This document shows, piece by piece, positions 34,853 through 51,286 of a stretch of 58,567 nt of DNA (positions within the stretch are counted from its first letter, which is position 1; each line of letters opens with the position of its first letter). The notes below the pieces were generated by a model. It did no database searches. It was not told where the DNA came from and saw only the letters and a program-made list of their open reading frames with translations. The DNA comes from Bacteroidales bacterium (lineage in GTDB: Bacteria; Bacteroidota; Bacteroidia; Bacteroidales; Muribaculaceae), in contig JAUNGA010000003.1 in assembly GCA_030524765.1 (NCBI GenBank), positions 14,439 through 73,005 on the forward strand. The letters are read 5' to 3'. A program made the position numbers and the translations under genes.

Positions 34853-34855
34853 AGT

Positions 34856-34897
34856 ACATAAGCCACAATATCCCGAAAGAGTTATTGTGGCTTATGT
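34856..34897 (-). terminator. Terminator of the peptidoglycan-salvage operon
   Basis: A perfect 15-bp stem (34856-34870 with 34883-34897), a 12-nt loop, then TACTTTTGGTTTGTCTTT on the minus strand. It lies 18 bp past the last gene and 4 bp before the -33 of the next transcription unit. Confidence 0.88.
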
Positions 34898-34915
34898 GTC
34901 TGCGGGGCGGTTACG

Positions 34916-35593
34916 TCACTCGCGTACGTAGGGGAGGATGATATCGCGCCATATGAGGTAGCCGGGGGCAAGCAAATGCAGCCCGTCGTTTGTGAGGTCG
35001 GCACGTAGATTGCCGTCGGCATCGCAGAAGGCGGGATGCAGGTTGATCCATGTGGCGCCTTTGGCTTTGACCATCGGCTCGATGAGACTATTGATCCGGC
35101 GTATGGTATCTTCTTTACCTGCCATGAGTCTGTAGCGGCCAAAACTATTGTTGACGGGCAGCATCGACTGTACGTACAGTCGTGTGTCAGGGGTTGCCTC
35201 GCGTATATAGTCGACGAGCTCGCCTATGGCGGTGGCTATCGAGTCGGCAGAGAGATCATGACTGACATCGTTAGCTCCGGCCAACAGGAAAATCTTGGCG
35301 GGCTTGCCGGCGACCACCGAGCCTATGCGCTCGCGGATACCTTCGACGATGTCGCCGTTGATGCCGCGGTTGACAACATTGGGCATGCCGAGCAACTCGT
35401 GCCATTCGCAGCCGTGAGTAAGGCTATTGCCGAGAAAAACGATGGTTGTCGAGTCGACGCCGAGTGCATCGAAGAGCGATGCCCGCTGGTAGTAGAGTTC
35501 GCCGTATTTTGGCTTGTCGGGCACGTTTTCGGCAGATATGCTTGTCATGGCTGTGGCGAGCATTGCGATGACGATAAGGAAGTGGCGCAGCAT
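34916..35593 (-). CDS. Secreted SGNH/GDSL hydrolase
   Basis: 225 aa from the ATG at 35593, one nt after the murQ stop; it gives a signal peptide (MLRHFLIVIAMLATAMTSISA), whereas the longer frame to 35743 lies inside murQ. The four SGNH blocks are present: GNSLTHG (Ser, about 53-59), the GINGD Gly block (about 75-79), GANDV (Asn, about 104) and DGLHL with the catalytic Asp/His (about 205). It should remove acyl or acetyl groups outside the cytoplasm. As last gene of the salvage operon a plausible substrate is O-acetylated muramic acid or another PG ester, an inference from context. Confidence 0.88.
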   Translation of the reverse strand: MLRHFLIVIAMLATAMTSISAENVPDKPKYGELYYQRASLFDALGVDSTTIVFLGNSLTHGCEWHELLGMPNVVNRGINGDIVEGIRERIGSVVAGKPAKIFLLAGANDVSHDLSADSIATAIGELVDYIREATPDTRLYVQSMLPVNNSFGRYRLMAGKEDTIRRINSLIEPMVKAKGATWINLHPAFCDADGNLRADLTNDGLHLLAPGYLIWRDIILPYVRE

Positions 35594-35594
35594 A

Positions 35595-36428
35595 TCAGTT
35601 TTCTTTGAGCGTTTCGCCCTCGCGATAAGCGTCAACGGCTGCTTTGACCGATCCGTGCATGAGCAGTTGACGTTTGGCCTCATCGTATGGCAGGCCGAGT
35701 TCGTCGATGACCATGCGTGTGCCACGGTCGACGAGCTTGGCATTGGTGAGTTGCATATTGACCATTTTGTTGCCTTTCACGCGTCCCATCTGTATCATTA
35801 CCGAGGTGGTGATCATGTTGCAGATCATCTTCTGGCCGGTGCCTGATTTCATGCGCGACGATCCTGTGACATACTCGGGACCTACCACCATCTCTATAGC
35901 GATGTCAGCAGCCTCGCTGACAGGGGCGTCGGGGTTTGAGGTTATGGCAGCAGTGAGTATGCCATGCTCGCGGCAGTCATTCAGCGCGCCTATCACGTAG
36001 GGGGTAGTGCCTGATGCGGCGATGCCTATGACCGTGTCTTTGTCATTGATATTGAATTTCTGCAGGTCTTTCCATCCTTGATGTTCGTCGTCCTCGGCGT
36101 TCTCGACGGCATTGCGGAGTGCGGTGTCTCCACCGGCTATCAAACCGATGACCCATGATGGATCCATGCCGAATGTGGGTGGAATCTCAGATGCGTCGAG
36201 CACGCCGAGTCGTCCCGATGTTCCGGCACCGATATAGAATATGCGTCCGCCACGTTTCATGCGTCCGACAATACGTGTGACGAGTTGTTCGATCTGAGGC
36301 AGGGCCTTCTCGACGGCGAAAGCCACCTTTTTGTCTTCGTTGTTTATATCGCGCAGGATCTCGCCTACCGATTTTTTCTCAAGGTCGCTGTATAGCGACG
36401 GTTGTTCGCTGATTTTTACAAATGCCAT
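35595..36428 (-). CDS. murQ: N-acetylmuramic acid 6-phosphate etherase
   Basis: 277 aa, slightly shorter than the about 300 aa E. coli enzyme. The SIS fold shows GGRIFYIGAGTSGRLGVLDA (key residues GAGTSGRLG), then SEIPPTFG with a conserved Glu, NAVENAEDD (second acidic site), GIAASGTTPYV and TGSSRMKSGTGQKM. It cleaves the lactyl ether of MurNAc-6-P to give GlcNAc-6-P and D-lactate in the cytosol. It lies between the kinase gene (27 bp) and the SGNH hydrolase gene (1 bp), and a D-lactate dehydrogenase-like gene is in the same operon. Confidence 0.97.
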   Translation of the reverse strand: MAFVKISEQPSLYSDLEKKSVGEILRDINNEDKKVAFAVEKALPQIEQLVTRIVGRMKRGGRIFYIGAGTSGRLGVLDASEIPPTFGMDPSWVIGLIAGGDTALRNAVENAEDDEHQGWKDLQKFNINDKDTVIGIAASGTTPYVIGALNDCREHGILTAAITSNPDAPVSEAADIAIEMVVGPEYVTGSSRMKSGTGQKMICNMITTSVMIQMGRVKGNKMVNMQLTNAKLVDRGTRMVIDELGLPYDEAKRQLLMHGSVKAAVDAYREGETLKEN

Positions 36429-36455
36429 GATTTGCAGCAGGTTTATGTTATAAGG

Positions 36456-37298
36456 TTATGCAGTGTGAAATTTGATGAGACCCTGCATAGGGCTTTTGAT
36501 GATAGTGCCGATGTGGCAATCGCACTGAGCGGCGGCTTCGGCAAGTACTTCGCGGAAGTAGTAGGCTATCGAACCGATGAAGTTTATGTCAAGGTCGCGG
36601 TAGCCGGGATATTGGGCGATGTTGCGTATAAAGAATGAACGGAACGAGTTGAGCACCAGCCGATGTATCTGAGGCTGATCGATATTCTCGAGCAGGAAGG
36701 GCGTCAGCGAGGCCATAAACCGGTTGGCCTGTGGCTCTTTGTAGACACGACGTATGATCGTGAGCCTGTCGAGGTCGTACTGCTTGAGAAATTTCTCGCT
36801 CAATGCCGGGGACAGCTGATTTTTGAGCACGTCGCCGAGCAACAGTTTGCCAAGCACGGCACCGGAACCTTCGTCACCGAGTATATATCCCAGCGGCGAG
36901 ACGTTGTCGCGTATCTCCGAGCCGTCGTAATAGCACGAGTTCGATCCTGTGCCCATGATGCAGGCGATGCCGGGCCGGCGGCCGCATAGGGCACGGGCGG
37001 CGGCAAGCAGGTCGGTGTGTACCTCGACAGTAGCGGCAGAGGGAATGTTGGCTCTGATGGCCCGCTCGACATTGCCGCATACCTCGGGAGAGATGCAGCC
37101 AGCTCCGTAGAAATATACAGCCTCGGGCGTAAAGCCGGCCAGCTCGGGCATGAGTTCGTCGGCGAGGCGAGCCCGTATCTCTTCCTCGGTGAGCATCACG
37201 GCGTTGATGCCGGTTGTGAAGGTTTGTTTTACGACTTTACCGTCGTCGAGCAGACACCAGTCGATCTTGGTGCTGCCGCAATCTGCAATCAGTATCAT
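36456..37298 (-). CDS. BadF/BadG-type amino-sugar kinase (MurK-like)
   Basis: 280 aa. ASKHA-fold motifs: DCGSTKIDWCL (phosphate 1) at the N-terminus, TGINAVMLTEEEI, FYGAGC near 88, ACIMGTGSNSCYY (phosphate 2) near 116-128, and GYILGDEGSGAVLGK (adenosine) near 138-152. These belong to the N-acetylglucosamine/N-acetylmuramic acid kinase group. The start overlaps the stop of the NagX-like gene by 4 bp and murQ follows, as in the described MurNAc catabolic cluster of Tannerella, where MurK phosphorylates MurNAc at O6. GlcNAc may also be a substrate. Confidence 0.9.
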   Translation of the reverse strand: MILIADCGSTKIDWCLLDDGKVVKQTFTTGINAVMLTEEEIRARLADELMPELAGFTPEAVYFYGAGCISPEVCGNVERAIRANIPSAATVEVHTDLLAAARALCGRRPGIACIMGTGSNSCYYDGSEIRDNVSPLGYILGDEGSGAVLGKLLLGDVLKNQLSPALSEKFLKQYDLDRLTIIRRVYKEPQANRFMASLTPFLLENIDQPQIHRLVLNSFRSFFIRNIAQYPGYRDLDINFIGSIAYYFREVLAEAAAQCDCHIGTIIKSPMQGLIKFHTA

Positions 37299-38470
37299 AT
37301 CTTGATGTATATTTTTTTCTTATATAGTATGTAGCCGACACACCAGTTGACGAGTACAAACAGCAGGGCAAAGATGAGTGACGCAAGAGTGGCGTCGTCG
37401 CAGCATATAGGCAATAGAATGCCCTCGTAGATCCATCCTTTGATTGAGATCATGCCTGACTCGACTCCGCTCCAGGGAATACGCACAGTGCCGATGATGA
37501 TTGATAGAATTGCTCCGAGACAGTACATGAACAGGGGATTGATGCCGAATGCCTCGAAGAACCGACACCATCGGCGATAGCCCTTTATGTCGATAATCCA
37601 GATGAGCAGGCCGAGGAAACTCGCTGCAAGACCGCAGGTGGTGAGAACGAATGTCGGTGACCATATTTTTTTGTTGATCGGCAGACCGAATGACAGCAGA
37701 AATCCGCTGAACGTAAGGATTGTGCCGACGATAAACAGGCGGTTGATGCGCAGTGTGTTGTCTTTGGTCGAGGTAATCATCGAGCCGCAGACAAAGCCAA
37801 TGAGCATGTGTGCGATCGACGGCAGGGTGCTGAGCAGACCCTCGGGGTCGAATTTGAGCCGTACGCCGCCTACAGTGTCGGCATACATGTGATCGGCACC
37901 GAGCACCCGGTGGTCGATAACCGATATGATGTTGTTGTCGGCAAATTCGAATCCGTTGCCCGACAACAGCAATACGGTGTAGACGACAAGCAGCAGGGCG
38001 ATGAACCACGGCAGTGACCTGTGGTTGATCCATAGCGCCACGAGCGAGCCTACGCCATAGCAGATCGCCAGACGTGGCATGACACCGAGAATGCGTATGT
38101 GATCGAAGTTGAGCACTGCCTCCCAGAACGTCTTCTCGTTGAGGATGCCCCGCAGGAAGAGTCCGAACCATGCTATGAACATGCCTATTAGAAATATTAC
38201 GACCGTGCGGCGCAGTATTTTGCAATAGGTGGGCCACGAGCCGCTGAAGTTGTATTTGCGCAGCGAGAAGTAGGTAGAGATACCCATTATGAACATAAAG
38301 AACGGGAAGACCAGGTCGGTGGGTGTCAGCCCGTTCCATTCGGCATGTTCGAGCGGAGCGTAGATGTGCCCCCACGATCCTGGGTTGTTTACCAGGATCA
38401 TGCCTGCGATGGTGATGCCCCGCAGGATATCGAGGGCAAGCAGTCTTGATGTTTTTGCTTTTTCAGCCAT
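37295..38470 (-). CDS. Membrane acyltransferase, NagX/HGSNAT-like (DUF5009)
   Basis: 391 aa from the ATG at 38470; the longer frame lies within the dehydrogenase gene. About ten TM helices. RLLALDILRGITIAGMILVNNPGSW at the N-terminus (key residues: D13, RG, NNPG) and PTDLVFPFFMFIMG are diagnostic of the heparan-alpha-glucosaminide N-acetyltransferase/NagX group, which uses cytosolic acetyl-CoA to acetylate amino-sugars across the membrane. ATGA overlap with the kinase gene. Within a PG-salvage operon it may re-acetylate glucosamine or muramic residues or take part in their uptake; this is an inference. Confidence 0.88.
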   Translation of the reverse strand: MAEKAKTSRLLALDILRGITIAGMILVNNPGSWGHIYAPLEHAEWNGLTPTDLVFPFFMFIMGISTYFSLRKYNFSGSWPTYCKILRRTVVIFLIGMFIAWFGLFLRGILNEKTFWEAVLNFDHIRILGVMPRLAICYGVGSLVALWINHRSLPWFIALLLVVYTVLLLSGNGFEFADNNIISVIDHRVLGADHMYADTVGGVRLKFDPEGLLSTLPSIAHMLIGFVCGSMITSTKDNTLRINRLFIVGTILTFSGFLLSFGLPINKKIWSPTFVLTTCGLAASFLGLLIWIIDIKGYRRWCRFFEAFGINPLFMYCLGAILSIIIGTVRIPWSGVESGMISIKGWIYEGILLPICCDDATLASLIFALLFVLVNWCVGYILYKKKIYIKI

Positions 38471-38501
38471 GTGCGTGATGTGACGATTGGTTTGAGTTGG
38501 A

Positions 38502-41318
38502 TCAGGCCGGCGAGGTGCATTCGTCGACGAGATAGACGATCGATTTGTATGAAATGCCACTGTTGTGTGTGAGGCCGATCTCGCATGTGCGCGAGTTTGA
38601 GTATCCGGCTTTTACACCTGCCTTGTCGAGCGCCGGACGCAGCTTGCGCAGCGCCCATCGGTTCAATTCGGGAAGGTTAAAGCCCTTGTCGCCGGCAAAT
38701 CCGCAGCATCCGACCTCGGCCGGTACGGTCACTGAGGTCGAGCAGCGCCCGGCAAGAGCTACGATTGTATCGCCCAGGCCCATGCGACGCGTCGAGCAGG
38801 TGATGTGTACGGCCACAGGGGTATCGGTGGGGGTAAAACGCAAATGTGGCACAAGGAAGCGCTCGATAAACTCTGCCGGTTCGTAAAGCTGCATCGACTT
38901 GATGTGGTCGCGCATGCGGTGCAGACAGGGACTCTGATCGCACAGCACGGGGTATCGTCCATTGTCAGATGCCTTTATCAGTGCTTGCTCGAGTTTCGCA
39001 GTCATGTTGTCGGCGATGTCGGGCATGCCTTTGCTCTCCCATATCATACCGCAGCACAGTGCATCAAGTCCATCGGGAAAAATGACTTCGTAACCGGCCT
39101 TGTGGCACAGGTTGACCATAGTGTCGACCAGTGGGGCGATCTCTTTGCCTTTCTCGCGTGTGACGCCCATGGCACGGTTGATACACGAGGGGAAATAGAC
39201 CACTTTTCGTTCAGACGGCTGTTGCGGTGTCTTGACAGTCTTGTCGGGCGAGTAGGGTGCCGGCAGAGATTCTGTCCACAGTGGCAGGCCGACGGCATGC
39301 ATGCCGCGGCCGATAGTGTCGACTGCTTTGTCGCCCAATATGCGGTGAGCCAGATCGGCGGCACCAAGGGCGATACGCAGGCCTTTTGATATACCCGTGA
39401 GATGGCGGGCGGCAAACAATCCTGACTTGTATCCGAGTGATCCCTCGGGGATGGCCTCGCGGCGTAAGATGTGGATTAGATCGCCGGTGTTTATGCCCAT
39501 CGGACAGGATGTGCTGCACAGTCCGTCTCCTGCGCATGAGTCTATGCCGGGATGTTTGAACTGGGCTGAAAGTTTGTCGGCCATCGCCGCATCGTCGGCA
39601 TTGCCTGTCGAGCGCAGACGCGATATCTCGCGTGTGACAACGACTCTCTGCCGGGCAGAGAGTGTGAATCCGCAGCTGACACAGTTGACCTCGCAGAATC
39701 CACACTCGATGCATTTGTCGACAACCGGATAGGTGGGTGCGAGGGGCTTGAGATCCTTGATGAAACACTCGGGATCGTCGTTGAAGATCACTCCCTGATT
39801 CAGAATGCCGTCGGGATCGAATGCGTCTTTGATGCGGCGCATGATATTCCATGCCTTGTCGCCCCACTCGCGTCGCACAAACGGTGCCATGTTGCGTCCA
39901 ACGCCGTGCTCGGCCTTGAGCGAGCCGTCGTATCGGTCGACGACCAGATGCTCGATGGCCTGCATCATATTGCGATAGCGGTCGATATCGGCCTTGGTGT
40001 CGAAAGACTGCGAGATGACAAAGTGATAGTTGCCCTCGAGAGCGTGGCCGTAGATGCATGCGTCAGGGTAGCCTGAGTCGTTGAGCAGTTTGACAAGCTC
40101 GACTGTTGCCGTGGGGAGGTCTTCGATATAAAAAGCGATGTCTTCGATCAGTGCTGTCGTGCCCGAGGGGCGGGTGCCGCCGACTGCGGGGAATATGCCC
40201 GATCGCAGTCCCCACCAGTGGCCGGTCTCGGCCGGGTCGGTAGAGAAGTGCGCCGGTTTGTAAAGCCTGAACTGATTGATGACGGCCATTATTGCGTCGA
40301 TCTTGTCGTTTAGCTCGGCGGCGGTGTCGGCCTTGGTGTCAAGCAGTAGCGCTGTCAGTCCGGTGCCGGTGGTGTCGTGTACGGCCTCGAGTGATTTGCG
40401 GTCAAGCATCTCGCAACTGTAGACCGGTGCACCCTTTTTGAGAGCCACCACGCACCGGCATGCCTCGGCCATATCGTCGAAATAGAGCATCGCCGACGCC
40501 GTGTAGGGATAGAGGTGCGATGTCTCAAGTGTGGCCCGGCTGAGGAATCCGAGTGTGCCCTCGCTGCCCACCATGCAGTGGGCGATTATGTCAAAGGGAT
40601 CGTCGTAGGTGACAAATGGCAACAGGTTGAGACCTGTGACGTTTTTGATCGAGTATTTATGGCGTATACGCCGTGTGAGCTCACGGTCGGCTCTGATGAG
40701 ATCGCGGATGTCACAGATCTCGGTGAGCATGCGTGGATGGGTCTTGGCGAAGGCTGCGCGCGACTCGGCATCGGCGGTATCGAGCACGGTGCCGTCGGCG
40801 AGTACGATGCGCATGGTGCGCAGTATCTTGTCACTGTTGGCGTGAGTGCCGCAGTTCATGCCTGAGGCATTGTTGATGATTATGCCTCCGACCATGGCCG
40901 ACCGTTTAGACGCCGGGTCGGGCGCAAAGATTCGTCCGAATGGTGCGAGAATCTCGTTGACCCTTGCGCCGACGATGCCAGGCTCAAGGGTTATGGCAGA
41001 TGCATCGCCGGAGATCTCATAGTACTCCCAGCCCTTACCGGCGACGATCAGCACTGAGTCTGTGATCGACTGGCCCGACAGACTTGTGCCGGCGGCACGG
41101 AATGTCACAGGTACGAAATTGGCTGTGGCTGCCTTGAGCAGCCGCGAGATCTCGTTCTCGTCGGCCGCACGCACCACAATGCGCGGGATCTTGCGGTAGA
41201 AACTTGCATCGGTGCCCCATGCCAGCCGCCGCAGCTCGTCGGTGTAGATGCGGTCGGCGGGGATAAAGGCGCGTATGTCCTTGAGAAATTCGTCGTGTCG
41301 GGGTGAGGGAGCGGTCAT
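38502..41318 (-). CDS. FAD/Fe-S D-lactate dehydrogenase-type oxidoreductase (GlcD-GlpC fusion)
   Basis: 938 aa. FAD-binding type 4 domain (about 35-260; VTFRAAGTSLSGQS, GGIIINNASGMNCGTHANSD), FAD-linked oxidase C-terminal domain (about 265-520; ALEGNYHFVIS, KAEHGVGRNMAPF), a ferredoxin module with CIECGFCEVNC (about 550) and CAGDGLCSTSCP (about 600), and a C-terminal CCG region (FPSCINR, ALCCGMIWES, HITCSTRRMG, VGCCGFAGDKG). This is the layout of the large D-lactate/D-2-hydroxyglutarate dehydrogenases that feed electrons into quinones. Since MurQ in the same operon releases D-lactate, that is the likely substrate (inference). 3 bp after namZ. Confidence 0.92.
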   Translation of the reverse strand: MTAPSPRHDEFLKDIRAFIPADRIYTDELRRLAWGTDASFYRKIPRIVVRAADENEISRLLKAATANFVPVTFRAAGTSLSGQSITDSVLIVAGKGWEYYEISGDASAITLEPGIVGARVNEILAPFGRIFAPDPASKRSAMVGGIIINNASGMNCGTHANSDKILRTMRIVLADGTVLDTADAESRAAFAKTHPRMLTEICDIRDLIRADRELTRRIRHKYSIKNVTGLNLLPFVTYDDPFDIIAHCMVGSEGTLGFLSRATLETSHLYPYTASAMLYFDDMAEACRCVVALKKGAPVYSCEMLDRKSLEAVHDTTGTGLTALLLDTKADTAAELNDKIDAIMAVINQFRLYKPAHFSTDPAETGHWWGLRSGIFPAVGGTRPSGTTALIEDIAFYIEDLPTATVELVKLLNDSGYPDACIYGHALEGNYHFVISQSFDTKADIDRYRNMMQAIEHLVVDRYDGSLKAEHGVGRNMAPFVRREWGDKAWNIMRRIKDAFDPDGILNQGVIFNDDPECFIKDLKPLAPTYPVVDKCIECGFCEVNCVSCGFTLSARQRVVVTREISRLRSTGNADDAAMADKLSAQFKHPGIDSCAGDGLCSTSCPMGINTGDLIHILRREAIPEGSLGYKSGLFAARHLTGISKGLRIALGAADLAHRILGDKAVDTIGRGMHAVGLPLWTESLPAPYSPDKTVKTPQQPSERKVVYFPSCINRAMGVTREKGKEIAPLVDTMVNLCHKAGYEVIFPDGLDALCCGMIWESKGMPDIADNMTAKLEQALIKASDNGRYPVLCDQSPCLHRMRDHIKSMQLYEPAEFIERFLVPHLRFTPTDTPVAVHITCSTRRMGLGDTIVALAGRCSTSVTVPAEVGCCGFAGDKGFNLPELNRWALRKLRPALDKAGVKAGYSNSRTCEIGLTHNSGISYKSIVYLVDECTSPA

Positions 41319-41321
41319 AGT

Positions 41322-42551
41322 TTATTCGTATATATAATATTTGGACGATGCGGCGCGGAAAGGCTCGACGTCTTTGTTCCAGTAGTCGATAATGTCGTCT
41401 ACACGGTGGTTGCGAGAGAACCGGCGGCGTATCTCTTTGCTGCCGGTGACCTTGTCAAACATATTGAAGCGGGCTTTGTCGGCTGTCTCGAAAGCCTTAT
41501 GGTCAGGATACATGTCGGCCAGCTCCTGCATCACATAGAACTGGGTGAGTGACAGCGGAGCCTTGTGGCGATCGGTGACATATACCTCGACACCCTGCAG
41601 GTTCTCGCCTTTGCCGAAACCGTAGAAAGGTTTGATATGTATGGGGCGGAACATCAGGCCGGGCAACTTGAGCGAGTTGAGACGACGGGCCAGCTCGTCG
41701 GCATTGACCCACGAGGCACAAAACAGCTTGAATGGCTCGGTATAACCGACGCCAATGTTCATGTAATTGATCTCGCCCATGATACCCGACAGGGGGTAAA
41801 GCGCGGCGGTCTCCGGAGTAGGGATATGCGGCGAGGGGAGCACCCAGGGCATCCCGGTCTCGCGGAAATCCATGTCGCGTGTCCAACCCTGCATTGGTAT
41901 AACGGTCAGATCGACCTTAAGGTTGTCGCCTATGAGGCCCTCGCCGTTGAGATACTGTGCGAGCTCGCCGGGAGTGAGTCCGTATATGTAGGGGATGGGA
42001 AACTGGCTGACAAACGAGTAGCACGAGTCTTCGACCACGTTGCCCTCGATCTTGTTGCCGCCTACGGGGTTCGGCCGGTCGAGCACCATGAACTGCTTGC
42101 CGAGCTCGGCGCAGGCTTCCATGGCCAGACCCATAGTAGAGATGAACGTGAACGACCGGCAGCCTATGTCCTGAATGTCATATATGAGCACGTCCACGTC
42201 TTTGAGCATCTCGGGGGTGGGCTTGCGGCTTTTGCCGTATATAGAGTAGACGGTGACGCCTGTGGCCGGATCGACAAAATTGTCGACGTGGTCGCCGGCA
42301 TGCACATCGCCGCGCACACCATGCTCTGGTGCATATAAGCCGGTGAGTGTGACTCCCGGTGCCTCGTGCAGAATGTCGATGGTCGACCGCAGTGAGTTGT
42401 CGACGCCTGTCGGATTGGTGATGAGTCCGACACGTTTGCCTTGCAGAGGTGCGAAATCCATGTCGCGCAGCACCTCGATGCCGGGTTTTACCTGTGCTGA
42501 GGCCACTGTGACGGCCAGAGCCGCGAGAGCCGATAATATAGTTTTTTTCAT
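41322..42551 (-). CDS. namZ: Exo-beta-N-acetylmuramidase NamZ (DUF1343)
   Basis: 409 aa with a signal peptide (MKKTILSALAALAVTVASA). Family motifs: GLITNPTGVD near 42-51, GLYAPEHGVRGD near 72-83, YGKSRKPT, DIQDIGCRSFTFISTM near 125-140, DRPNPVGG near 158 and PSPHIPTPETA near 243. DUF1343 proteins characterised in Bacillus and Tannerella cleave MurNAc from the non-reducing end of PG-derived glycans. It would supply MurNAc in the periplasm for the AmpG-type permease gene located 6 bp upstream. Confidence 0.94.
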   Translation of the reverse strand: MKKTILSALAALAVTVASAQVKPGIEVLRDMDFAPLQGKRVGLITNPTGVDNSLRSTIDILHEAPGVTLTGLYAPEHGVRGDVHAGDHVDNFVDPATGVTVYSIYGKSRKPTPEMLKDVDVLIYDIQDIGCRSFTFISTMGLAMEACAELGKQFMVLDRPNPVGGNKIEGNVVEDSCYSFVSQFPIPYIYGLTPGELAQYLNGEGLIGDNLKVDLTVIPMQGWTRDMDFRETGMPWVLPSPHIPTPETAALYPLSGIMGEINYMNIGVGYTEPFKLFCASWVNADELARRLNSLKLPGLMFRPIHIKPFYGFGKGENLQGVEVYVTDRHKAPLSLTQFYVMQELADMYPDHKAFETADKARFNMFDKVTGSKEIRRRFSRNHRVDDIIDYWNKDVEPFRAASSKYYIYE

Positions 42552-42557
42552 GAGTTG

Positions 42558-44480
42558 TCAGTCTTTTTTAGATTCGGTTTTCCGGCCGAAATTGGGATCG
42601 ATCTTGAGGAAAGCGCATACGCCGATGGTGGCTGCGCAGCATATCATCGTCCAGATGAAGAAGTGGCGATAGCCGATAGTCTCCTGCAGCCATCCTGCGG
42701 CCATGCCCGGGAGCATCATGCCTAACGCCATGAATCCTGTGCAGATGGCATAATGGGCGGTCTTGTGACGACCCTCGGAGAAGTATATGAGATAGAGCAT
42801 ATAAGCCGTGAAGCCGAATCCATAGCCGAACTGTTCGATGAAAACGCATATGTTGACCACGAGCAGCGAGTGGTCAGATGCATAGCTCAGATAGACGAAT
42901 GTCAGGCAGGTGAGCGACATGCTCCATGCCATAGGCCAGAGCCATTTCTTGAGACCTCCCTTTGCGGCCGCGATACCGCCGATGATACCGCCGATTGTAA
43001 GGCCGATGATGCCTACGGTGCCATAGACGATGCCCACCTGGCCCGTTGTCAGGCCAAGACCGCCCTTGTCGATCGGGTCGAGCAGGAACGGGTTGATGAG
43101 TTTGACGAGCTGGGCCTCGGGCAGTCGGTAGAGGAGCATGAAAGCTATGGCCACCCATACCTGAGGTTTCTGGAAGAATGTCTTGAATGTGTCAAAGAAC
43201 TCGCGCATGATGTTGCCTGCCGACGAGCGGTCGTTGCCGCTGTCAGATGCAGGACGGGGCAGCGCCCAGCTGTGGTAGACGGCCACGATAAAGAAGAATG
43301 CCGACAGCACGGCAAACACTACCAGCCATGCCATGGGGATATTGCCCGATGCACCCTCGAACGAGGCCGATGCAGGCGCGGTGAGCTTGTGGTCGATTTC
43401 ATAATACAGCCAGGCTGTCTTGTCCCAGTTGGCCTCGGTGAACACAAATCGTGTCGACAATGCGTTTTGCTCGAGCTTGATGCTCTGATCGCCTGCCTTG
43501 TGGGTGACGTTGAGCACGATTTCCTCGCCGGGGGCAGGTCGGCGATTGAGCCGCAGTCCTACGATGGCGATGTTGTTGTCGCGTTCGTTGTACGGTTCAC
43601 GCTGCTCGCCGAATGTCTCGCGGACCCAGGCTGTAAACGAGCCCTCGCCGTTTTTTGAGGCAGGCGTCGCGTCGACAGATGCGGACTTGGCTGAGGCGGG
43701 TACCTCGGCGGCTACAAAACCGTTGCGCTCGTTGCAGTGCTTGACTGAATCGCGCATCATGGCGGCATAGGCTTTGAACGGCATCACCGAGTCGCGGCCA
43801 TTGACCGATACGCTTACCTCGCGCGGAGCGACAGTGGCGACACGTGTCTGTGCCGCAGGGGTGAAAAACTGCATCTCTCCCTGCAGATCGGCCTCGGCAG
43901 AATATATGGCCGTCATGTCGGGCGCCGACCATTCGACGGCCGGATCGGCATCGACGCTTACGCGCAGCGGCTCGAGACCCGAGTTGGTCTCTATCAGGCC
44001 TGCGATGATGACCAGCAGGCCCTGGCCGGCTACGGTGGCAACTCGGTAGAATGTCGAGCGCACGCCCACGTAGAGCGATTGTTCGTGCTCGCTCAGTGCG
44101 AGCATATAGAATCCGTCGGCGGCTATATCGTGCGTGGCCGACGTAAAGCCCACGATCCAGAATATGGCCAGCGTGAGCTGGAAGAAGAACGGTGTGGGTA
44201 TGGTGAAGGCTATGCCGGCCAGTGCGAATGCTATGATCCACTGCATGGTCAGCGTCCACCACCGTTTAGTGCGGATGATGTCGACAAACGGGCTCCAGAA
44301 GGGTTTGATGACCCAGGGCAGATAGAGCCATCCGGTGTATAGGGCGATGTCGGTGTTTGAGATACCCAGGCGCTTGTACATGATGACCGAAATGGTCATC
44401 ACGGCCACGTAAGGCAGGCCCTGCGCGAAGTAAAGCGTAGGTATCCAGGCCCAGGGATTGCGTTTGGTCGTTTTGCTCAT
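42558..44480 (-). CDS. ampG: AmpG-family muropeptide MFS transporter with large periplasmic insert
   Basis: 640 aa from the ATG at 44480. The N-terminal half has the AmpG signature WAWIPTLYFAQGLPYVAV, LPWVIKPFWSPFVD and GFTSATHDIAADGF. TM1-5 span about 13-165 and the remaining helices about 383-620. Between TM5 and TM6, residues about 166-380 form a polar beta-rich insert that by topology should face the periplasm. Typical AmpG proteins are about 430-490 aa. It imports MurNAc-containing sugars or muropeptides by proton symport. Adjacent to namZ (6 bp) and the SpoIID-like gene (13 bp). Confidence 0.93.
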   Translation of the reverse strand: MSKTTKRNPWAWIPTLYFAQGLPYVAVMTISVIMYKRLGISNTDIALYTGWLYLPWVIKPFWSPFVDIIRTKRWWTLTMQWIIAFALAGIAFTIPTPFFFQLTLAIFWIVGFTSATHDIAADGFYMLALSEHEQSLYVGVRSTFYRVATVAGQGLLVIIAGLIETNSGLEPLRVSVDADPAVEWSAPDMTAIYSAEADLQGEMQFFTPAAQTRVATVAPREVSVSVNGRDSVMPFKAYAAMMRDSVKHCNERNGFVAAEVPASAKSASVDATPASKNGEGSFTAWVRETFGEQREPYNERDNNIAIVGLRLNRRPAPGEEIVLNVTHKAGDQSIKLEQNALSTRFVFTEANWDKTAWLYYEIDHKLTAPASASFEGASGNIPMAWLVVFAVLSAFFFIVAVYHSWALPRPASDSGNDRSSAGNIMREFFDTFKTFFQKPQVWVAIAFMLLYRLPEAQLVKLINPFLLDPIDKGGLGLTTGQVGIVYGTVGIIGLTIGGIIGGIAAAKGGLKKWLWPMAWSMSLTCLTFVYLSYASDHSLLVVNICVFIEQFGYGFGFTAYMLYLIYFSEGRHKTAHYAICTGFMALGMMLPGMAAGWLQETIGYRHFFIWTMICCAATIGVCAFLKIDPNFGRKTESKKD

Positions 44481-44493
44481 GGTATGATAATTG

Positions 44494-45858
44494 TTATTCG
44501 TAAAGACGTGTGATGTCGGCGTCGACAAAGTAATGGGCAAGAATCGAGCGATAGTCATATCCACGGGCGCCCATGACGGCGGCGCCTATCTGGCACAGAC
44601 CTACGCCGTGGCCCCATCCGGCGCCGCGCAGAGTGAATGTCCCGGGCAGGCCGGTGACGGGATCGGCATCGCCTGTCTCGACGATAAAAGCCGAACTGTA
44701 GAGATGGCTCGGAGACAGCGTGCGGCGTATCTCGAGCTCCTTGCCGATAATCATCGTGCGGTGTGTGCCTACAATGCGCAGACGCACGAGCCTGCCCGAT
44801 GTGCCGCGCTCGACGGGCTCGAGCGCACGTATGGCGCCGAAGTCGATGCCCGATCGCTCGGCAACGAGAGCAGCCAGCTGATCCTGGGTATATGTGACTG
44901 TCCAGCGATAGAAGTCGGTGGTCTCCTGATCATAGTTGTTGAGCACCTGGCTTAGAATACTCTTGTCGGCCGTGTTGCAGAATGCATCGGGACGTGATGT
45001 GATCCACTGCGATGCCCGGTCCTCGACATGCAGATCGGGGAAGTCGGTCTCGTCGGTGCTGTCGCGGCGCGCCGAGAGATAGTGCAGATGACGCGGTTCC
45101 CAGCAGTTTTCAAACTCCTCGAAGACACCGCCGCAGCATTTTGAGAAACGTGCGTCGCACAATTCACCGTCGTAGGCGAGAACCTCGCCGCGGGTAGCCT
45201 CGACCGCTTCGTTGACCGCTTGTGTGGTCTGGCGTGTGAGGCCCTGATAGCGCTGGCAATGGTCGTCGGCACATACATGGAAATCGGTGTGGTCCTCGCG
45301 GTCATACCAACGTATGAGTTGGTCATCGGTGCGTGTGCATGCCGAGTATTTCTCACCATGATCGGCGATTCGTCTCTGTTTGTCGATCTGTGCGAGCAGC
45401 CAGCTGCGCGATATGACGGCATGAGCCTTGAGCAGCGCCGGCGAAGCCGTAGCACTCATTTCTGATGATATGACGCTCTTGAGATAATCCTCGACGTGGA
45501 CTATGTTGATGGCTGTGATGCCGCCGTTGGGGGCCGGACGCAGCTCAAGACTGCCGGCAAATGTCTGGTCTTCGCGTCGCTGCCAGTGAAAGCCGACGCC
45601 TATCACTACATCGTGCAGCGTAAAAGTGGCGTTGCTGTCAAGGCTCTCGAATGTGGGGAGACTGTCGATGACCACGTGACCGTCGGGCGATATGACAGCG
45701 ATGCGACCGTCGTCGGCGATGCGTGCGAGGCACGAACCGCTCAGTCTGACCGGCCCGAGCCGGTAAGCGCCGTTGAGATCAAATCGCAGTTCTGCGACAG
45801 TGAGTATGCCGACACGTACGCTCGGTTCGGATTGAAATTTATTCAACATCTGATGCAA
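44494..45858 (-). CDS. SpoIID/LytB-domain protein without signal peptide
   Basis: 454 aa from the ATG at 45858, overlapping the DUF4922 gene by 20 bp; the ATG at 45849 is an alternative. RVGILTVAELRFDLNGAY starts the fold (shown here by key residues VGIL and FDLNG). The SpoIID domain shows VEDYLKSVISSEMSATASP (about 120-138) with the catalytic-type Glu, KAHAVISRSWLL, and CADDHCQRYQGL and DARFSKCCGGVFEEF near 200-250. SpoIID is a lytic transglycosylase acting on denuded glycan. No signal peptide or TM is seen, so a cytosolic location, acting on imported PG fragments, is implied unless the start is wrong. Confidence 0.87.
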   Translation of the reverse strand: MHQMLNKFQSEPSVRVGILTVAELRFDLNGAYRLGPVRLSGSCLARIADDGRIAVISPDGHVVIDSLPTFESLDSNATFTLHDVVIGVGFHWQRREDQTFAGSLELRPAPNGGITAINIVHVEDYLKSVISSEMSATASPALLKAHAVISRSWLLAQIDKQRRIADHGEKYSACTRTDDQLIRWYDREDHTDFHVCADDHCQRYQGLTRQTTQAVNEAVEATRGEVLAYDGELCDARFSKCCGGVFEEFENCWEPRHLHYLSARRDSTDETDFPDLHVEDRASQWITSRPDAFCNTADKSILSQVLNNYDQETTDFYRWTVTYTQDQLAALVAERSGIDFGAIRALEPVERGTSGRLVRLRIVGTHRTMIIGKELEIRRTLSPSHLYSSAFIVETGDADPVTGLPGTFTLRGAGWGHGVGLCQIGAAVMGARGYDYRSILAHYFVDADITRLYE

Positions 45859-46777
45859 TACGGTTTATCTCGTCTGCGTTGAGGCATAGCTCGTCAAAGA
45901 CGCGTATGACTGTTTCGGCGTCGAGCGCGTCGAAATCTTTTTCAAGAGGCGTGATGAATACGCCGCCCATGTCGACCGATGCGGGACTGAGCAGCATGGT
46001 GCCTTCGCCCTCGGTACCGTAAAAACTGGGCCGATGGCGTTTGCGCGGAATTACGACGAGTCGCACTCCGGCCGCGGTGGCGTAGCACAGCAGATTCATC
46101 ATGGGCTCGCGTTCGCCCTCGGGCACCGGCATGGCACGGTAGAGCCGGTCGAATAGCCGTTGTGCGGCCTCGGGGCTGTAGGCATCGATTACAAAGACAC
46201 GCAACGGCAGCGAGTCGGCCAATGCGAGCACCGATTCACCGTCGGTGGCTATGGTCTTGAGTTCGCAGTCTTCGAGAGCCGGGGCAAGAGTGAGAAAGTC
46301 GCTGTTGCCGGCCTGAAAGTGCATGTGGTCGGGCGCTGATGCTCCGCAGCGCGGTCCGTTGTAGAATATGGTGTACTCGTTGAGGTCTGCGGCCAGACGG
46401 GCCATGTCGGCAATGCGGCCGGCGATGAGCTGGTCGGTATGAGACTTGTCGGGTATTGTCAAGTGACGCGGAAAGATCGGGAAGGGGTTGACCAGCACTG
46501 TATAGCGGCCGCCCCAGTCGATGCCCTGCTGCTCGGCGGGGCGGTTGGCCTCGCAGAGAAAGCATTTGCGCTCGCGTATTGTCTTTGCGTCGACTTTTGC
46601 GCCCGACGACACGATGCGCGCCGGATTGAACTGGACCTTTACCGTCCAGCCGGGCAACTCGACGTTCTTGACCCTGACGCCGTCGAGTGCTTTGAAATTA
46701 TCGGCCGCAAGAGGCCATGCGGCCTTTTGCGACTCGATAAAATCATTTATCTGCTGAGATGAGAGTCTGTTGCTCAT
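45839..46777 (-). CDS. DUF4922, HIT-like nucleotidyl/phosphorylase-family protein
   Basis: 312 aa from the ATG at 46777 overlapping the GT2 stop (ATGA). CFLCEANRP (Cys72, Cys75) may bind zinc; [13 protein letters not shown] near 98-110 is the typical HIT-superfamily strand, and [10 protein letters not shown] gives His151-x-His153-x-Gln155, the HxHxQ triad form used by Ap4A phosphorylase, GalT and GDP-sugar phosphorylases. It probably transfers a nucleotidyl group or phosphorolyses a nucleotide sugar in the cytosol. Lies with GT2 and SpoIID genes in the salvage operon; its role there is unknown. Confidence 0.86.
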
Positions 46778-48237
46778 GCCTGTTTGTTGAGTGCCTGGCG
46801 GGCTTTGAGCTCCCAGGTGCGTATGCGGTCTTTGTAGAGGTTGTTGGCGTTGGTCTTGACGATGTCGAGAGCGTGGTCTGAGTTGTCTTCCCAGCGGCGG
46901 CAGAGATATACGACGTCGTAGACGCGGCCAATCTGGTTGTGGCGCGAGAAGGCCAGTCCGAGGGCATAGTCTTCGCCATACGATGTGTTGGGCACACCGA
47001 TCTGGCGCAACATGGGTGTGTAGAATGCTCGTGGCGCGCCCAGACCGTTGATGCGCAAGGCGTTGTTGCGACCGTTCTCGGGAGTCCATTCGCGATGGTC
47101 GATGACGCCCGGCGGAATCATATTCATGTCGATGTCGGTGAGCATGTATGTGCCCACTACCATGCCGCAGTTCTGCTCGTAGAACGCTGCGACCATTTTG
47201 GCGAGTGTGTTCTCGTCGGCATAGACGTCATCAGAGTCGAGCTGTACGGCAAATTTGCCGCATGACGGATGATTGGCTCCGAGATTCCAGCAACCGCCGA
47301 TGCCGAGGTCGTCGCGCTCGGGTATGATGTGGATGACACGGGGATCATCGGCGAATTCCCGAATGGCCTCGGTAGTACCGTCGGTCGACCCGTTGTCGAT
47401 GATAATGAGGTTGAAGGGAAAATCGGTCTTTTGCGACAGTACGCTGCGGATGGCATCACGTATGGTGCGCACACGGTTGCGCACGGGGATGATGACAGAT
47501 GCCTCATACTCGAAGTCGCCGCGATCAAACGATATTTTGTCGAATACGGGCTCGAGGTACGCTCCGACGGCTTTGAGGTGGGCGGTGCAAGCCTGTTCCA
47601 TCTCGATCTGCACGCCACGGTTCTTGGGGTCGACGTAGCTGAATATCGCCTCGCCCGACTCGTTGCGCGGCGCAGCGATGACTGTATAGAGATATTCGTT
47701 GATATGCACTATGGGCGCTATACGGCCGAGACGCAGACGCAGGTCGTAGAGACCGGCGGCTTTGTAGTCGACGTCGATACCGGCTGCGGCACGGCGAAAG
47801 TCGACGGTGTCGAAGAGCATTACGGCGCCGAAGTCGAAGTCGTCGCGCAATGCGCCTTCCTGCCAGTCGATCACGGGCATATTCGAGCGCTTGCCGTCGA
47901 CGACGAGATATGAGTCGGCATAGACCATTCCGGCGCCCGAGTCGGTGGCGATACGCGTCATGCGCTCGAGTGCGAGATAGCCAGGCACGAGTATATCCTG
48001 ACGGTTGAAGAGCAGGATGTAATCGCCCGTAGCAGCCTCGGCGATGCGTTTGACAGTGGCCGATGATGCCGGAGAGTCGATATTGATTACTGCGCATCCG
48101 GCCGGAACGGCAGCCTCGGGATCAGTGGCGAGGATAGTGATTTTGTCGACGATGTCGGTCGAGCGCAGAGCCTCGACTGTGGCGGCCATGCTCTCGGCAG
48201 AGGCCTGTGCGATAAAACAGCTGACAGTTTTTTTCAT
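46774..48237 (-). CDS. Tandem glycosyltransferase family 2 protein with degenerate first domain
   Basis: 487 aa. The second GT-A domain (about 235-460) is complete: [46 protein letters not shown] and the DxD form [12 protein letters not shown] near 333. The first 230 aa follow the same pattern ([20 protein letters not shown]) but the acidic pair is NRQD and the N-terminal strand is weak, so this copy is probably non-catalytic. No TM. It overlaps DUF4922 by 4 bp. Acceptor unknown; position in the PG-salvage operon suggests a glycan built from, or linked to, recovered amino-sugars (inference). Confidence 0.85.
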
Positions 48238-48269
48238 GTGCTATTCGGGGGGTAGTATAGGGGATTTTG

Positions 48270-51233
48270 TTATTTGCTGAAGAAATCGAGTATCTGACGC
48301 ATGAGATTGGCGCGCGAAGACGTGCCCTCGATTGTCTCGAAGGGGAAGCCCAGTATGACTGTGCGATAGCCGCCCATGTCTGATGCGGTGCCGGCGACGA
48401 GATTGTTCTCGTCATATCGCATGATGGTGCAGCCCTTGGTCTTGTCAGAGGCATAGAACGAATCGGGCGACTCTACGGCATATATGTCTGCGTTGAGCTC
48501 GTGCGAGAAGTCGAATCGGCCTCCGGTAAACTGTTTGAAGCGGCATGGTACCTCATATGCCATGCCCTCGGTCGAGGCCTGACCTACGCGCCAGTGATAA
48601 CCGAGCACCTCGGTGGCAAATTTCTGGTCGGCCTCGGCAACGGCGGCCGACGAGTGAGGATTGTCCCAGAGGTCTGTAGCTACATACGAGCCGGTGACAA
48701 AAACGCTTGTGCCGGCGGCAGTGGCGGCAGTGAGTTTGCGCTGCAACTCGCCGGGGAATGTCTTGTAGCGGGTGCCATAGACGCCACGGCCCTGCTTGAT
48801 CTCTTTCTGTTTGCCCAATATGAGGTCGACAATACGTGGCTGGCCCTCGACCGCCGATGCGGCATAGGCGCCGACCGATGACGAGATAAACGAGTGTCCT
48901 GCGTCGACAATCGCGCGGCCGTGGGTATATACATAGTCGAATGTGTTGCCGGCGATCACCTTGTCCTCGTAGTTTGAACGCGATGCGCCGAAACCGGCAG
49001 CGTCGTCGTCCATCCATGGAATGTCGCGGCGATACTCAAATTGTGAGCCGATGAAGGCAATCTCGCTGACATAGGGCACGCCATGATCGCGCACGTCGTA
49101 GAATCCGGCTATGTCGCCTGCCTCAAACCAGTCGGGAGCGCTGACGCGGGTAAATCCGTTGACCACCATCACAGGCTCTGAACCGTTGGCGAGGTCGCAG
49201 AGAGCGAGCACTTCTGAGGGGAAGCTTACGCCACCCTCGTTGGCAGCGATGATGCGGTATGAGTGGATATCGGTGTCAGATACGGTGACGGTGTATTCAG
49301 GTTCGGTGACTTCGGCAAGTTTTGTGAAGCCGAGATCATCGGCCCGGCGATGCTCTATTATATAATATGTGGGCATGGCAGTCGACTCGAGCGAGTCGGG
49401 TGTCGCATCCCATGTGAGCCTATAAGTGCGGGCTGCCTTGTCGGCAGCGATGGCGAAGTTGTGCACGGGCAGGGGTTGCACCACATATTCGCGGCCATCG
49501 CGGTGTGCAAGGAATTTGAGCATGCCTTTGTAGACTGCGCGCGAAACCGTGAAGCGGAAGTTGGGGTCGAGACCATATTTCATGTCGGCAAAATTCTGGT
49601 GCGACAGCAGTTCGAGCAGCATGGCGGGTACTTCAGGCACGCGGGCCTCGAAATATGATTTGTCCCACATGCCGCGACGGGTCCAGCGTGGCTCGAAACC
49701 GGCACACACATCGTTGACGATGTCGGTCATGATCAGGTCGGTGAGATCGCGCGACATCATGCGCGACGAGCCGTTGCCGAGTGTGTCGCCAACGGTGCTG
49801 TAAATGCCGAGTGTGCCGACGATCGAATCGTTGCGGAATGTGCCTGCATCGCTGTGGAATGCAAAGCTGAGGTCGACAGGTACGCCGAGGCCTTCGCGTC
49901 CGGGCATTTGCGGGGATCCGCCGGCAAGCCAGTTGACCCACAGGCCACGCGAACGGTAGTCGTCGTTGTAGTCGTTGACATTGTCAGACGGGGTGTAGAC
50001 ACTGTCAGGTGCTCCGGCCCATTGCAGCCAGTAGCGGGCACCTTCGACCCAGCGGGGATATCCGCTGAGCGTGTACTGATAGTCGATCGAGTCGAGCGGC
50101 TCTTTGACGATGCGTGCCACATTGCCCATGCCGCCGCCGATTTTGACGGCGTCGGCTGTGACGACTGTGCCCGGAGTAGCACTGAGGTCGCTCAACTGCA
50201 CTACGGGCACGTTATTGCCGGCCTTGAGCGGGAAGTGGCCGAGATATATCCATGTGCCGCCGCCCATGCGCTGGTTGATCGTGAAGTGGCGCAGACCGTT
50301 GGCCGTATTGACCGTGTAGTGTGCGTCGGGAGCGCTGTTGGGCTCGCTGACATAGCTGACATAAACGGCGTAATTGCCGTCGGCGGGTATATCGGCCGTC
50401 CACAGCGCGTACGACTCATCCTTGCGGTCGGTCGTGGTGGTGTGGCGGCGTGCCTTGCCCTGACGGAAGGGATTCTGACTGTTGACGAGACTTGCGCCGT
50501 CCCATGCAAAGCCGGGTGTCGATGCGTCATCCCATTTGGCGTCACGCGAGAATTCGATGAAACCCGGTGTGGCCGCGTTGTCGGCATCTATAATTATCTC
50601 GGTGCGGTTGGTATCGCGTTCTCGGGGACTCATGACGTATGCGCCGGCATTCTCGAGCATGGGCATGAGATAGGGCATGACATAGCTTTGCGTATATAAG
50701 TCCTCGACGGTCTGGAATATGCGAGCGCGCTGCCACTCCCATCGGTTGAGTTTTGGCTCGAAGTACCATCCGTGGCTCTGCCACAGTGCTATGTTTGCAC
50801 CGTCGAGACCTTTTGGGGCCGCAGGTGCATCCTCGCGGACGACAAATGGCAGGGGCGAGGGCGTCAGGACGGTTTTCTTGTCGGCAAAAAGGGCGAGTTC
50901 GTCGAGGGTGTGGCCGTCAGCGATGATACGCACTTTGTAGGTCTGCGGCAACCTGAGTGCCTTGAGTATGTCGGTTTTGAGCGACGCAAGTGTCTCGGCT
51001 GTCAGGGGAAGATATGATGTGGCGGTATTGCACTTGACGGTGACGGTACGTCTGTTGCGGTCGACGGTGACTTTGTCGACTTTCATAGATCCGTATCCGG
51101 TAGATCCGGGCCTGTAGCTGTTGATGGCATTGAGCACCTTTGTCTCGCGGGATGTAACTGATGTGTTTTGTGCGTCGGCGAGACACGGCGCAAGCAGCAA
51201 TGTAAGGCTTAAAGCGAGTTTACAGATATTCAT
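48270..51233 (-). CDS. Secreted multidomain amidase-like protein with golvesin-type insert and Fn3
   Basis: 987 aa from the ATG at 51233, giving a signal peptide (MNICKLALSLTLLLAPCLADA); the frame to 51281 includes the -7 box. About 30-130 is a GerMN/AMIN-like beta domain. From about 150, IALWQSHGWYFEP starts an N-acetylmuramoyl-L-alanine amidase-like fold, interrupted at about 215-375 by a golvesin/xanthan-lyase-type sandwich (YAVYVSYVSEPNSAPDAHYTV, GGTWIYLGHFPLKAG), then resumed (FAFHSDAGT; PAMLLELLSHQNFADMKYG). An Fn3 domain follows (about 620-710) and a further alpha/beta domain (about 715-987). First gene of the salvage operon; would release peptides or glycans from peptidoglycan. Confidence 0.82.
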   Translation of the reverse strand: MNICKLALSLTLLLAPCLADAQNTSVTSRETKVLNAINSYRPGSTGYGSMKVDKVTVDRNRRTVTVKCNTATSYLPLTAETLASLKTDILKALRLPQTYKVRIIADGHTLDELALFADKKTVLTPSPLPFVVREDAPAAPKGLDGANIALWQSHGWYFEPKLNRWEWQRARIFQTVEDLYTQSYVMPYLMPMLENAGAYVMSPRERDTNRTEIIIDADNAATPGFIEFSRDAKWDDASTPGFAWDGASLVNSQNPFRQGKARRHTTTTDRKDESYALWTADIPADGNYAVYVSYVSEPNSAPDAHYTVNTANGLRHFTINQRMGGGTWIYLGHFPLKAGNNVPVVQLSDLSATPGTVVTADAVKIGGGMGNVARIVKEPLDSIDYQYTLSGYPRWVEGARYWLQWAGAPDSVYTPSDNVNDYNDDYRSRGLWVNWLAGGSPQMPGREGLGVPVDLSFAFHSDAGTFRNDSIVGTLGIYSTVGDTLGNGSSRMMSRDLTDLIMTDIVNDVCAGFEPRWTRRGMWDKSYFEARVPEVPAMLLELLSHQNFADMKYGLDPNFRFTVSRAVYKGMLKFLAHRDGREYVVQPLPVHNFAIAADKAARTYRLTWDATPDSLESTAMPTYYIIEHRRADDLGFTKLAEVTEPEYTVTVSDTDIHSYRIIAANEGGVSFPSEVLALCDLANGSEPVMVVNGFTRVSAPDWFEAGDIAGFYDVRDHGVPYVSEIAFIGSQFEYRRDIPWMDDDAAGFGASRSNYEDKVIAGNTFDYVYTHGRAIVDAGHSFISSSVGAYAASAVEGQPRIVDLILGKQKEIKQGRGVYGTRYKTFPGELQRKLTAATAAGTSVFVTGSYVATDLWDNPHSSAAVAEADQKFATEVLGYHWRVGQASTEGMAYEVPCRFKQFTGGRFDFSHELNADIYAVESPDSFYASDKTKGCTIMRYDENNLVAGTASDMGGYRTVILGFPFETIEGTSSRANLMRQILDFFSK

Positions 51234-51278
51234 GTGGCAAGATTCAAGGATACGGAAGTGTGAGCCGCCCTTTAACCA

Positions 51279-51286
51279 CAAAGTTA
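51279..51286 (-). promoter_or_regulatory. -7 box of the salvage operon
   Basis: TAACTTTG on the minus strand, 45 nt before the ATG at 51233. No TTTG at the right distance, so the operon promoter may need an activator. Confidence 0.5.

Follow-up and report, generated by a model that had tools for sequence, protein, structure and literature searches.

The closest described relative of the system discussed here is the nine-gene unit of the oral bacterium Tannerella forsythia (Tanf_08345-08385), which comprises, in order, a xanthan lyase gene, two glycosyltransferase genes (gtf, gtf), lytB, ampG, ybbC (namZ), murT, murK, and murQ, and which forms a single transcript by reverse transcription PCR, with GppX as its regulator (PMC5388701, PMC7670621; this and all other literature is cited from the available passages of the papers). 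In T. forsythia, MurT, MurK, and MurQ have been reported for free N-acetylmuramic acid (MurNAc) and AmpG for disaccharides. The window analyzed here, a stretch of 58,567 nucleotides from a Muribaculaceae genome (GCA_030524765.1, contig JAUNGA010000003.1, positions 14,439 to 73,005), carries the same nine kinds of genes in the same order, matched by family and order, within a head-to-tail series of eleven minus-strand genes, g1 to g11, that runs from 51233 to 34916. As in T. forsythia, a promoter precedes the first gene and MurA and MurB are not recognized in the host. However, g7 is placed here between namZ and murT, g11 follows murQ, an NlpC/P60 gene lies upstream instead of a second MurK-like kinase, and the host belongs to a gut lineage. 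Quite probably, g1-g11 is the counterpart, in a gut member of the Bacteroidales, of the ampG-namZ-murTKQ operon of T. forsythia and supplies the cell's own MurNAc; the D-lactate-dehydrogenase-like flavoprotein g7 and the SGNH gene g11 are additions to the published gene set. Likewise, in the MurP/MurQ route of Escherichia coli, the MurQ etherase yields N-acetylglucosamine 6-phosphate (GlcNAc-6-P) and D-lactate, as here, whereas the present operon has no phosphotransferase-system (PTS) importer and would combine a separate kinase with non-PTS uptake (PMC5790795). MurNAc auxotrophy appears in the surveyed literature only for T. forsythia among the matches listed, in a survey that covers few subscription papers, and a search combining Muribaculaceae and MurNAc retrieved nothing apparently related, as judged from the titles and the beginnings of the abstracts.

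The eleven genes are separated by junctions of +32, -4, -11, +13, +6, +3, +31, -4, +27, and +1 bp. They lie between a -7 box of the Bacteroidota type, TAACTTTG (51279..51286, minus strand, beginning at 51286), and an intrinsic terminator (34856..34897, minus strand), whose RNA hairpin has a predicted energy of -24.6 kcal/mol (z -5.95) and was matched in stability by none of 200 shuffles. Of 44 sequences, counting that of the window, 37 have a TAnnTTTG box no more than 180 bp upstream of g1, where shuffling of the bases would give 5.6, while a simple test revealed no -33 TTG ahead of g1 in the window. The row of eleven genes with this box and this terminator, as described by the first-pass annotation, is borne out by the coordinates, the junctions, the box counts, and the hairpin. 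Its reading of the row as a peptidoglycan-salvage unit leading from secreted hydrolases to MurQ is supported as well. Nine of the genes stand as in T. forsythia, and the unit is conserved, with all of g1-g11 recovered by tblastn in 25 of the 80 related loci that were compared. These 80 loci lean to close kin, because they were taken as the best 80 of 130 NamZ relatives, and many of them are interrupted by contig ends. A consensus scan of 34000-52500 returned 15 terminator-like sites against 13.5 expected and 22 sigma-70-type sites against 12.8 expected (standard deviation 4.0), a promoter type that is not that of Bacteroidota; some of the latter are on the minus strand within the operon, so internal promoters may exist inside the unit. 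Across the window, Rfam models detected two tRNAs and nothing else.

A result of wider reach concerns MurA and MurB in the genome as a whole. In the host genome, MurB_C has no match, whereas 10 of 14 control genomes match. The EPSP-synthase family has a single match, a frame that resembles AroA (279.5 bits, with the cut-off at 287.25) and reaches 26.4 bits as MurA, for which 392.7 are required. By contrast, MurE, MurD, MraY, MurG, MurF-Alr, and Ddl exceed their cut-offs and MurC falls just under its own (311.8 bits against 335.1). The late Mur enzymes being kept, peptidoglycan is seemingly still built from UDP-MurNAc, and, with no MurA or MurB recognized, the purpose of the operon likely shifts from nutrition to wall building. 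A route to this precursor through AmgK and MurU has been cited for T. forsythia (PMC7670621), and adjacent AmgK-like and MurU-like genes exist in the host on another contig (locus L175). Unlike in that route, the AmgK-like protein carries a C-terminal RapZ domain as a fusion, and neither protein reaches the curated cut-offs; for one of them, MurU models score best, and for the other, AmgK models come second to RapZ. A pair within the window was also considered and rejected, as its nucleotidyltransferase (54253-55158) sits with galM, galE, and galK and the better pair is on the other contig. These genes form a galactose cluster, galK, galE, and galM plus the nucleotidyltransferase gene, at 54253-58401 on the minus strand.

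The same absence extends over the genus. Both MurA and MurB are missing from 32 of the 37 genomes sampled (36 drawn plus the host), while the remaining five (G001, G006, G010, G013, and G017) have MurA over the cut-off together with MurB, encoded by neighboring genes in all five. Nine of the 37 genomes are at least 98% complete, and six of these lack both enzymes; all six are 99% complete and have a close NamZ, and in two of them (G016 and G030) the whole g1-g11 set was read. Further members of the genus at 98-99% completeness are also without MurA (G328, G353, G365, and G376). At the level of the family, MurA exceeds the cut-off in 126 of 198 genomes. Nearly complete genomes of other genera also lack it (G237, G262, G245, G254, and G255), as does G397, which belongs to another genus, is listed as one contig, and is 98% complete. 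The host and most of the sampled members of its genus are thus probably MurNAc auxotrophs, a prediction from gene content, and would depend on their neighbors for building the wall.

One could suppose instead that the operon performs ordinary nutrient salvage in a bacterium that makes MurNAc, MurA and MurB being merely missing from draft assemblies. This would suit a host assembled in 127 contigs, the more so since murA and murB lie side by side wherever they occur in the sampled genus, in five genomes, and a single gap could therefore remove both; moreover, G006 and G013 hold both pathways. Nevertheless, the explanation is very improbable, given that 32 of 37 genomes lack both enzymes, six of them at 99% completeness, with a chance of missing all of about 10^-38 in a rough estimate that treats completeness as independent. 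In addition, DnaB was found in every one of the 47 genomes of the same set with a completeness of 90% or more, and MurA is missing from G397, which is listed as one contig. A direct view is offered by G036, which has an intact hyp355-dnaB-tolC-MFP-RND stretch, with 226 bp from dnaB to tolC, at the site where its sister G017 has murA-murB. In the 12 kb read at this dnaB-tolC site, neither murA nor murB gave a match with E below 1, and the absence there is therefore not an assembly gap.

Several observations weigh against a wall-building role in an auxotrophic host. The host assembly is a draft, 90.8% complete in 127 contigs, and its AmgK/MurU-like pair scores far below the curated cut-offs (58.6 of 550 and 122.7 of 250 bits, respectively). 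Such a pair is also present in G017, which has MurA and MurB, and G030 has an AmgK-like gene without a MurU-like neighbor; one of the AmgK searches used only the broad APH family. In favor of that role, an operon-type close NamZ, which in most genus genomes serves as a proxy for the operon, is present in 31 of the 32 genomes without MurA and MurB (partial in G014) and in two of the five that have them (Fisher p 0.005, or 0.012 if G014 is counted as missing), but independent pairs give no significance for this association, as the evolutionary changes are few. In the two latter genomes, G006 and G013, MurA, MurB, and the operon occur together. The 72 family genomes without MurA are a count that covers this enzyme only and is inflated by incomplete drafts, and one of them, G361, has MurA split. 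Finally, G036 carries a short operon, ampG-namZ-g7-murT-murK (g5-g9; locus L204, 6757-14708), beside a protein of 455 aa whose N-terminus is lipoprotein-like, and g1-g4, murQ, and g11 are not in the 20 kb read, even though this genome lacks MurA and MurB.

The distribution of murA and murB also raises the question of the direction of change. In a DnaB tree, which leaves out G010, G015, and G021 for want of a DnaB match, the rows bearing MurA and MurB are nested inside those lacking them, so that two changes are needed, and G036 is sister to G017 plus G001 (100/99). G017 and G001 carry murB-murA flanked by a tolC-type gene on one side and dnaB on the other, and a close NamZ was found in neither. 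In the family tree, the MurA proteins of the bearing genomes are split between two positions, one of them near genus g156, although this placement is not firm. Moreover, among the 30 best-scoring murA loci of the family (1.5-kb flanks, G017 included), murB is adjacent in seven and dnaB in G017 only. This evidence leans toward regain of murB-murA, although repeated loss of the two genes is a possible alternative. The comparison of murA flanks also makes it less likely that the G036 site is a clean deletion, because the sister line may instead have gained the pair beside dnaB by insertion. The fuller scenario has an even chance of being right; in it, the genus would be ancestrally devoid of MurA and MurB and live on the salvage operon, the murB-murA pair would have been picked up anew on two or more occasions (beside dnaB in G001 and G017, and elsewhere in G006 and G013), some lines would then have lost the operon, and obligate dependence on the walls of other bacteria would be widespread in the family and not particular to T. 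forsythia.

The first gene of the operon, g1 (48270..51233, minus strand), whose frame permits a TTG start at 51281, encodes a secreted protein with a Golvesin_C domain (Pfam, 2.7e-26) and occupies the position of the so-called xanthan lyase gene of T. forsythia. Amidase_3 of Pfam gives a weak match in 35 of the 40 members of its group A1 (best 5.6e-5), with 0.24 for the window protein; at 11.8 bits, the latter is under the gathering threshold of 27 and is therefore not filed as a member of this family. Nonetheless, H154, E177, H460, and E541, which we take from the family pattern to be the zinc and catalytic set of an amidase, are invariant in 40 of 40 sequences and flank the Golvesin insert on both sides. 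The A1 profile matched Golvesin-type and fibronectin-type structures and no amidase structure up to E 1. The residue pattern suggests that g1 is probably an N-acetylmuramoyl-L-alanine amidase split by the Golvesin domain. A strong periplasmic amidase has been inferred by the T. forsythia group, with no gene named for it in the passages available (PMC7670621), and g1 is a candidate for this activity. Ortholog counts, here and below, comprise frames complete in their locus and of 0.8-1.35 times the query length, and the references aligned with the window number 39 of 43 for g1, 33 of 53 for g3, 31 of 49 for g8, and 31 of 65 for g4.

The three following genes encode a family 2 glycosyltransferase (g2, 46774..48237, minus strand; Pfam, 1.4e-26), a DUF4922 protein that resembles HxHxQ nucleotidyltransferases and phosphorylases (g3, 45839..46777, minus strand; Pfam, 7.4e-65), and a SpoIID/LytB protein (g4, 44494..45849, minus strand; Pfam, 3.9e-25; structure 4rwr, 1.7e-27). 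In g3, H151, H153, and Q155 are invariant in 34 of 34 sequences and the profile has a distant match to the Ap4A phosphorylase 4i5t (3.9e-6); by analogy with GalT, one may speculate that it activates MurNAc-1-P. In g4, E130 is kept in 66 of 66 rows, and the orthologs start directly at the domain; by a crude rule based on hydrophobicity, 61 of 65 have no signal-like N-terminus, and such an N-terminus is also missing from g2 and g3. All three proteins are probably cytosolic, judging from their N-termini, which is odd in the case of g4, as SpoIID proteins are peptidoglycan-cleaving.

The first-pass annotation had set these three genes apart as a possible branch outside the described route, a view that does not hold, because the nine genes match the T. 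forsythia transcript, in which gtf, gtf, and lytB are co-transcribed with ampG, ybbC, and murTKQ (PMC5388701), and the three are therefore part of the described unit. A salvage pathway joined to a separate branch of glycan synthesis would agree with the glycosyltransferase nature of g2 and with a cytosolic location of g2, g3, and g4. Even so, such a branch seems improbable: the cleaving activity of the SpoIID family points the other way, g2, g4, and g5 accompany namZ without murTKQ nearby in six loci (L100, L101, L107, L108, L110, and L112, where g3 was not detected), and none of the results indicates a product of synthesis.

The next two genes would provide uptake and the release of MurNAc. 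g5 (42558..44480, minus strand) encodes an AmpG-type muropeptide permease with an insert of about 190 aa (NCBIfam AmpG family, 1.2e-47, under the cut-off; AmpG structures, 8zgz, 6.4e-16). The AmpG proteins of the operon, of which 23 rows remain under the length limits given above, fall mainly into two size classes, about 421-469 and about 621-658 aa, and the insert varies by locus, being present or absent even within Marinifilum. g6 (41322..42551, minus strand) encodes the exo-beta-N-acetylmuramidase NamZ (Pfam NamZ_N, 1.7e-85; NamZ_C, 3.6e-38). NCBIfam models gave no match for g1, g3, g6, and g11. Outside the operon, the host has a second, distant NamZ (34% identical; G000:C68, L002), and a similar distant copy exists in most genomes of the genus.

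The flavoprotein g7 (38502..41318, minus strand) has the architecture of a 2-hydroxyacid dehydrogenase, with FAD_binding_4, FAD-oxidase_C, 4Fe-4S, and CCG domains, and all 53 rows retain the cofactor-type cysteines that were checked. This architecture and the genomic context suggest that it is probably a D-lactate dehydrogenase with the D-lactate from MurQ as substrate. In a sample of 198 genomes of the order, a close g7 occurs in 20 and a true MurQ in 44; the two coincide in 18 genomes (one-sided Fisher p 9e-12, without correction for kinship). The first number refers to at least 35% identity over nearly the full length, read by eye from a tally of 148 that includes distant paralogues, and the second to at least 53% identity, likewise read by eye, the tally of 83 at E 0.001 including other SIS proteins. 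Both reading frames contain stops in G051. Moreover, g7 stands right after namZ in 35 of the 47 loci in which murT, murK, or murQ follows namZ, is next to namZ in three other arrangements (L119, L123, and L126), and lies within the operon in L115 and L116. Against this, it is missing from 12 of the 47 comparable loci, one of which, L111, has murQ 9 kb away. Thus, from the lactate handling of the first-pass annotation, the presence of a lactate-dehydrogenase-type gene in the operon stands, whereas the D-lactate step itself is argued from architecture and co-occurrence.

That g7 acts on another 2-hydroxy acid, such as glycolate or 2-hydroxyglutarate, its position in the operon being incidental, must be weighed here. 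The closest solved structures are those of glycolate oxidase and LctD besides the mitochondrial D-lactate dehydrogenase, and no NCBIfam equivalog was reached over its cut-off. In addition, no other g1-g11 gene was found in 14 of 19 distant loci around g7, some of them on short contigs, and G036 retains g7 with no murQ nearby. In view of the co-occurrence with MurQ and of the recurrent placement of g7 next to namZ, this alternative is rather unlikely, and D-lactate is the more probable substrate.

The membrane protein in the murT position, g8 (37295..38470, minus strand), is of the NagX/HGSNAT type. NCBIfam NagX matches it at 2.6e-32, under the cut-off; its score of 112.4 bits is far from the 480 of the equivalog, and it is therefore treated as a relative and not filed as NagX. 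Its profile matches human HGSNAT at 1.3e-36 and places H42 opposite His297. This histidine is kept in 50 of 50 rows of the MurT type, and D14 and R17, which form a DxxR motif, are kept in the 49 rows that cover them, so that the role of a transporter is put in question. In the published work, NagX has been proposed to be an acetyltransferase, His297 of HGSNAT is catalytic, and the MurT of T. forsythia (TfMurT) is a distant NagX relative (PMC9007349), while the study of TmAT groups DUF5009 with HGSNAT (PMC12423673). g8 resembles these transmembrane acetyltransferases in the family match, the DxxR motif, and the catalytic histidine, and differs from them in that it occurs among MurNAc genes, has a T. 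forsythia counterpart published as a transporter, and is under the NagX cut-off. The first-pass annotation is corrected on this point, as its NagX-like acylation gene occupies the place of murT, whose T. forsythia product is itself reported as a distant NagX relative.

Hence, g8 could be a transmembrane N-acetyltransferase of the HGSNAT/NagX kind and not a MurNAc transporter, re-acetylating de-N-acetylated wall sugars in the periplasm and, with the SGNH esterase, standardizing modified wall sugars that would be imported by AmpG or another carrier. In favor of this are the kept histidine and DxxR motif, the match to HGSNAT, the grouping of DUF5009 in the TmAT study, and the arrangement in Marinifilum, where a g8 relative lies beside g11 and g2-g5 and murK and murQ were not found nearby. 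However, TfMurT and TfMurK together, but neither of them alone, allow an E. coli murP mutant to grow on MurNAc (reported second-hand in PMC5790795), g8 is far under the NagX cut-off, and no g8 lies between g7 and g9 in L041 and L044. On balance, this alternative is tentative and less probable than not, and transport and acetyl transfer by MurT may both be true. The kept acetyltransferase histidine makes the published assignment of MurT as a transporter directly testable. With regard to the Marinifilum loci (L090-L093, L095, L096, and L099), g1-g5, g11, and the g8 relative stand opposite namZ, g1 not being found in L096, where the locus ends.

The remaining genes are g9, g10, and g11. g9 (36456..37298, minus strand) encodes the MurNAc 6-kinase MurK, with structural matches to 8oqw, annotated as 'ATPase' (1.7e-94), and 8ow9, annotated as 'putative novel MurNAc kinase' (5.5e-94). 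The window protein has the S-P-L stretch that fits MurNAc (NVSPLGYILGDEG) and the T (HTDLLAA), as named for MurK in PMC10465942; over 51 rows, S is found in 44, P in 47, L in 47, and T in only 28. A second MurK-like kinase is absent from the window and precedes the operon in L061, L068, L077, L087, and L088, as reported for K1058 of T. forsythia (PMC10465942). g10 (35595..36428, minus strand) is the MurNAc-6-phosphate etherase MurQ (NCBIfam, 373.8 bits against a cut-off of 168), and g11 (34916..35593, minus strand) is a secreted SGNH/GDSL hydrolase with a signal-like N-terminus (Pfam, 1.8e-22). Upstream of g1, at a distance of 152 bp that includes the promoter box, the window encodes an NlpC/P60 peptidoglycan peptidase (51386-52186, minus strand), which is also a same-strand neighbor in five related loci (L035, L038, L039, L046, and L056).

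According to this arrangement, g1 would strip the stem peptides outside the inner membrane, g11 would take off ester groups, and NamZ would free MurNAc from the glycan ends, with uptake of disaccharides by the AmpG-type g5 and of free MurNAc by the MurT-type g8. Once inside, MurNAc could follow two branches. In one of them, the AmgK/MurU-like pair would convert it into UDP-MurNAc for MurC-F, in place of MurA and MurB, whereas in the other, MurK and MurQ would yield GlcNAc-6-P and D-lactate, which g7 would oxidize to pyruvate. The identities of the genes at the family level, the conservation of the unit, the lack of recognizable MurA and MurB in the host and in 32 of the 37 genomes, and the presence of the later Mur enzymes come from the analysis itself, whereas the auxotrophy, the fluxes, the roles of g2-g4, and what g1, g7, g8, and g11 act on are inferred.

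If this picture is true, it would have practical and ecological consequences. Fosfomycin targets MurA, and bacteria of this kind are predicted to be insensitive to it. MurNAc or peptidoglycan in the medium would be a simple aid to cultivation. Moreover, a sizeable part of this gut family would be unable to make MurNAc, a sugar required by all walled bacteria, and would have to take it from its neighbors. This would amount to direct cross-feeding on cell walls among gut bacteria and would help to explain why many of these bacteria are hard to isolate.

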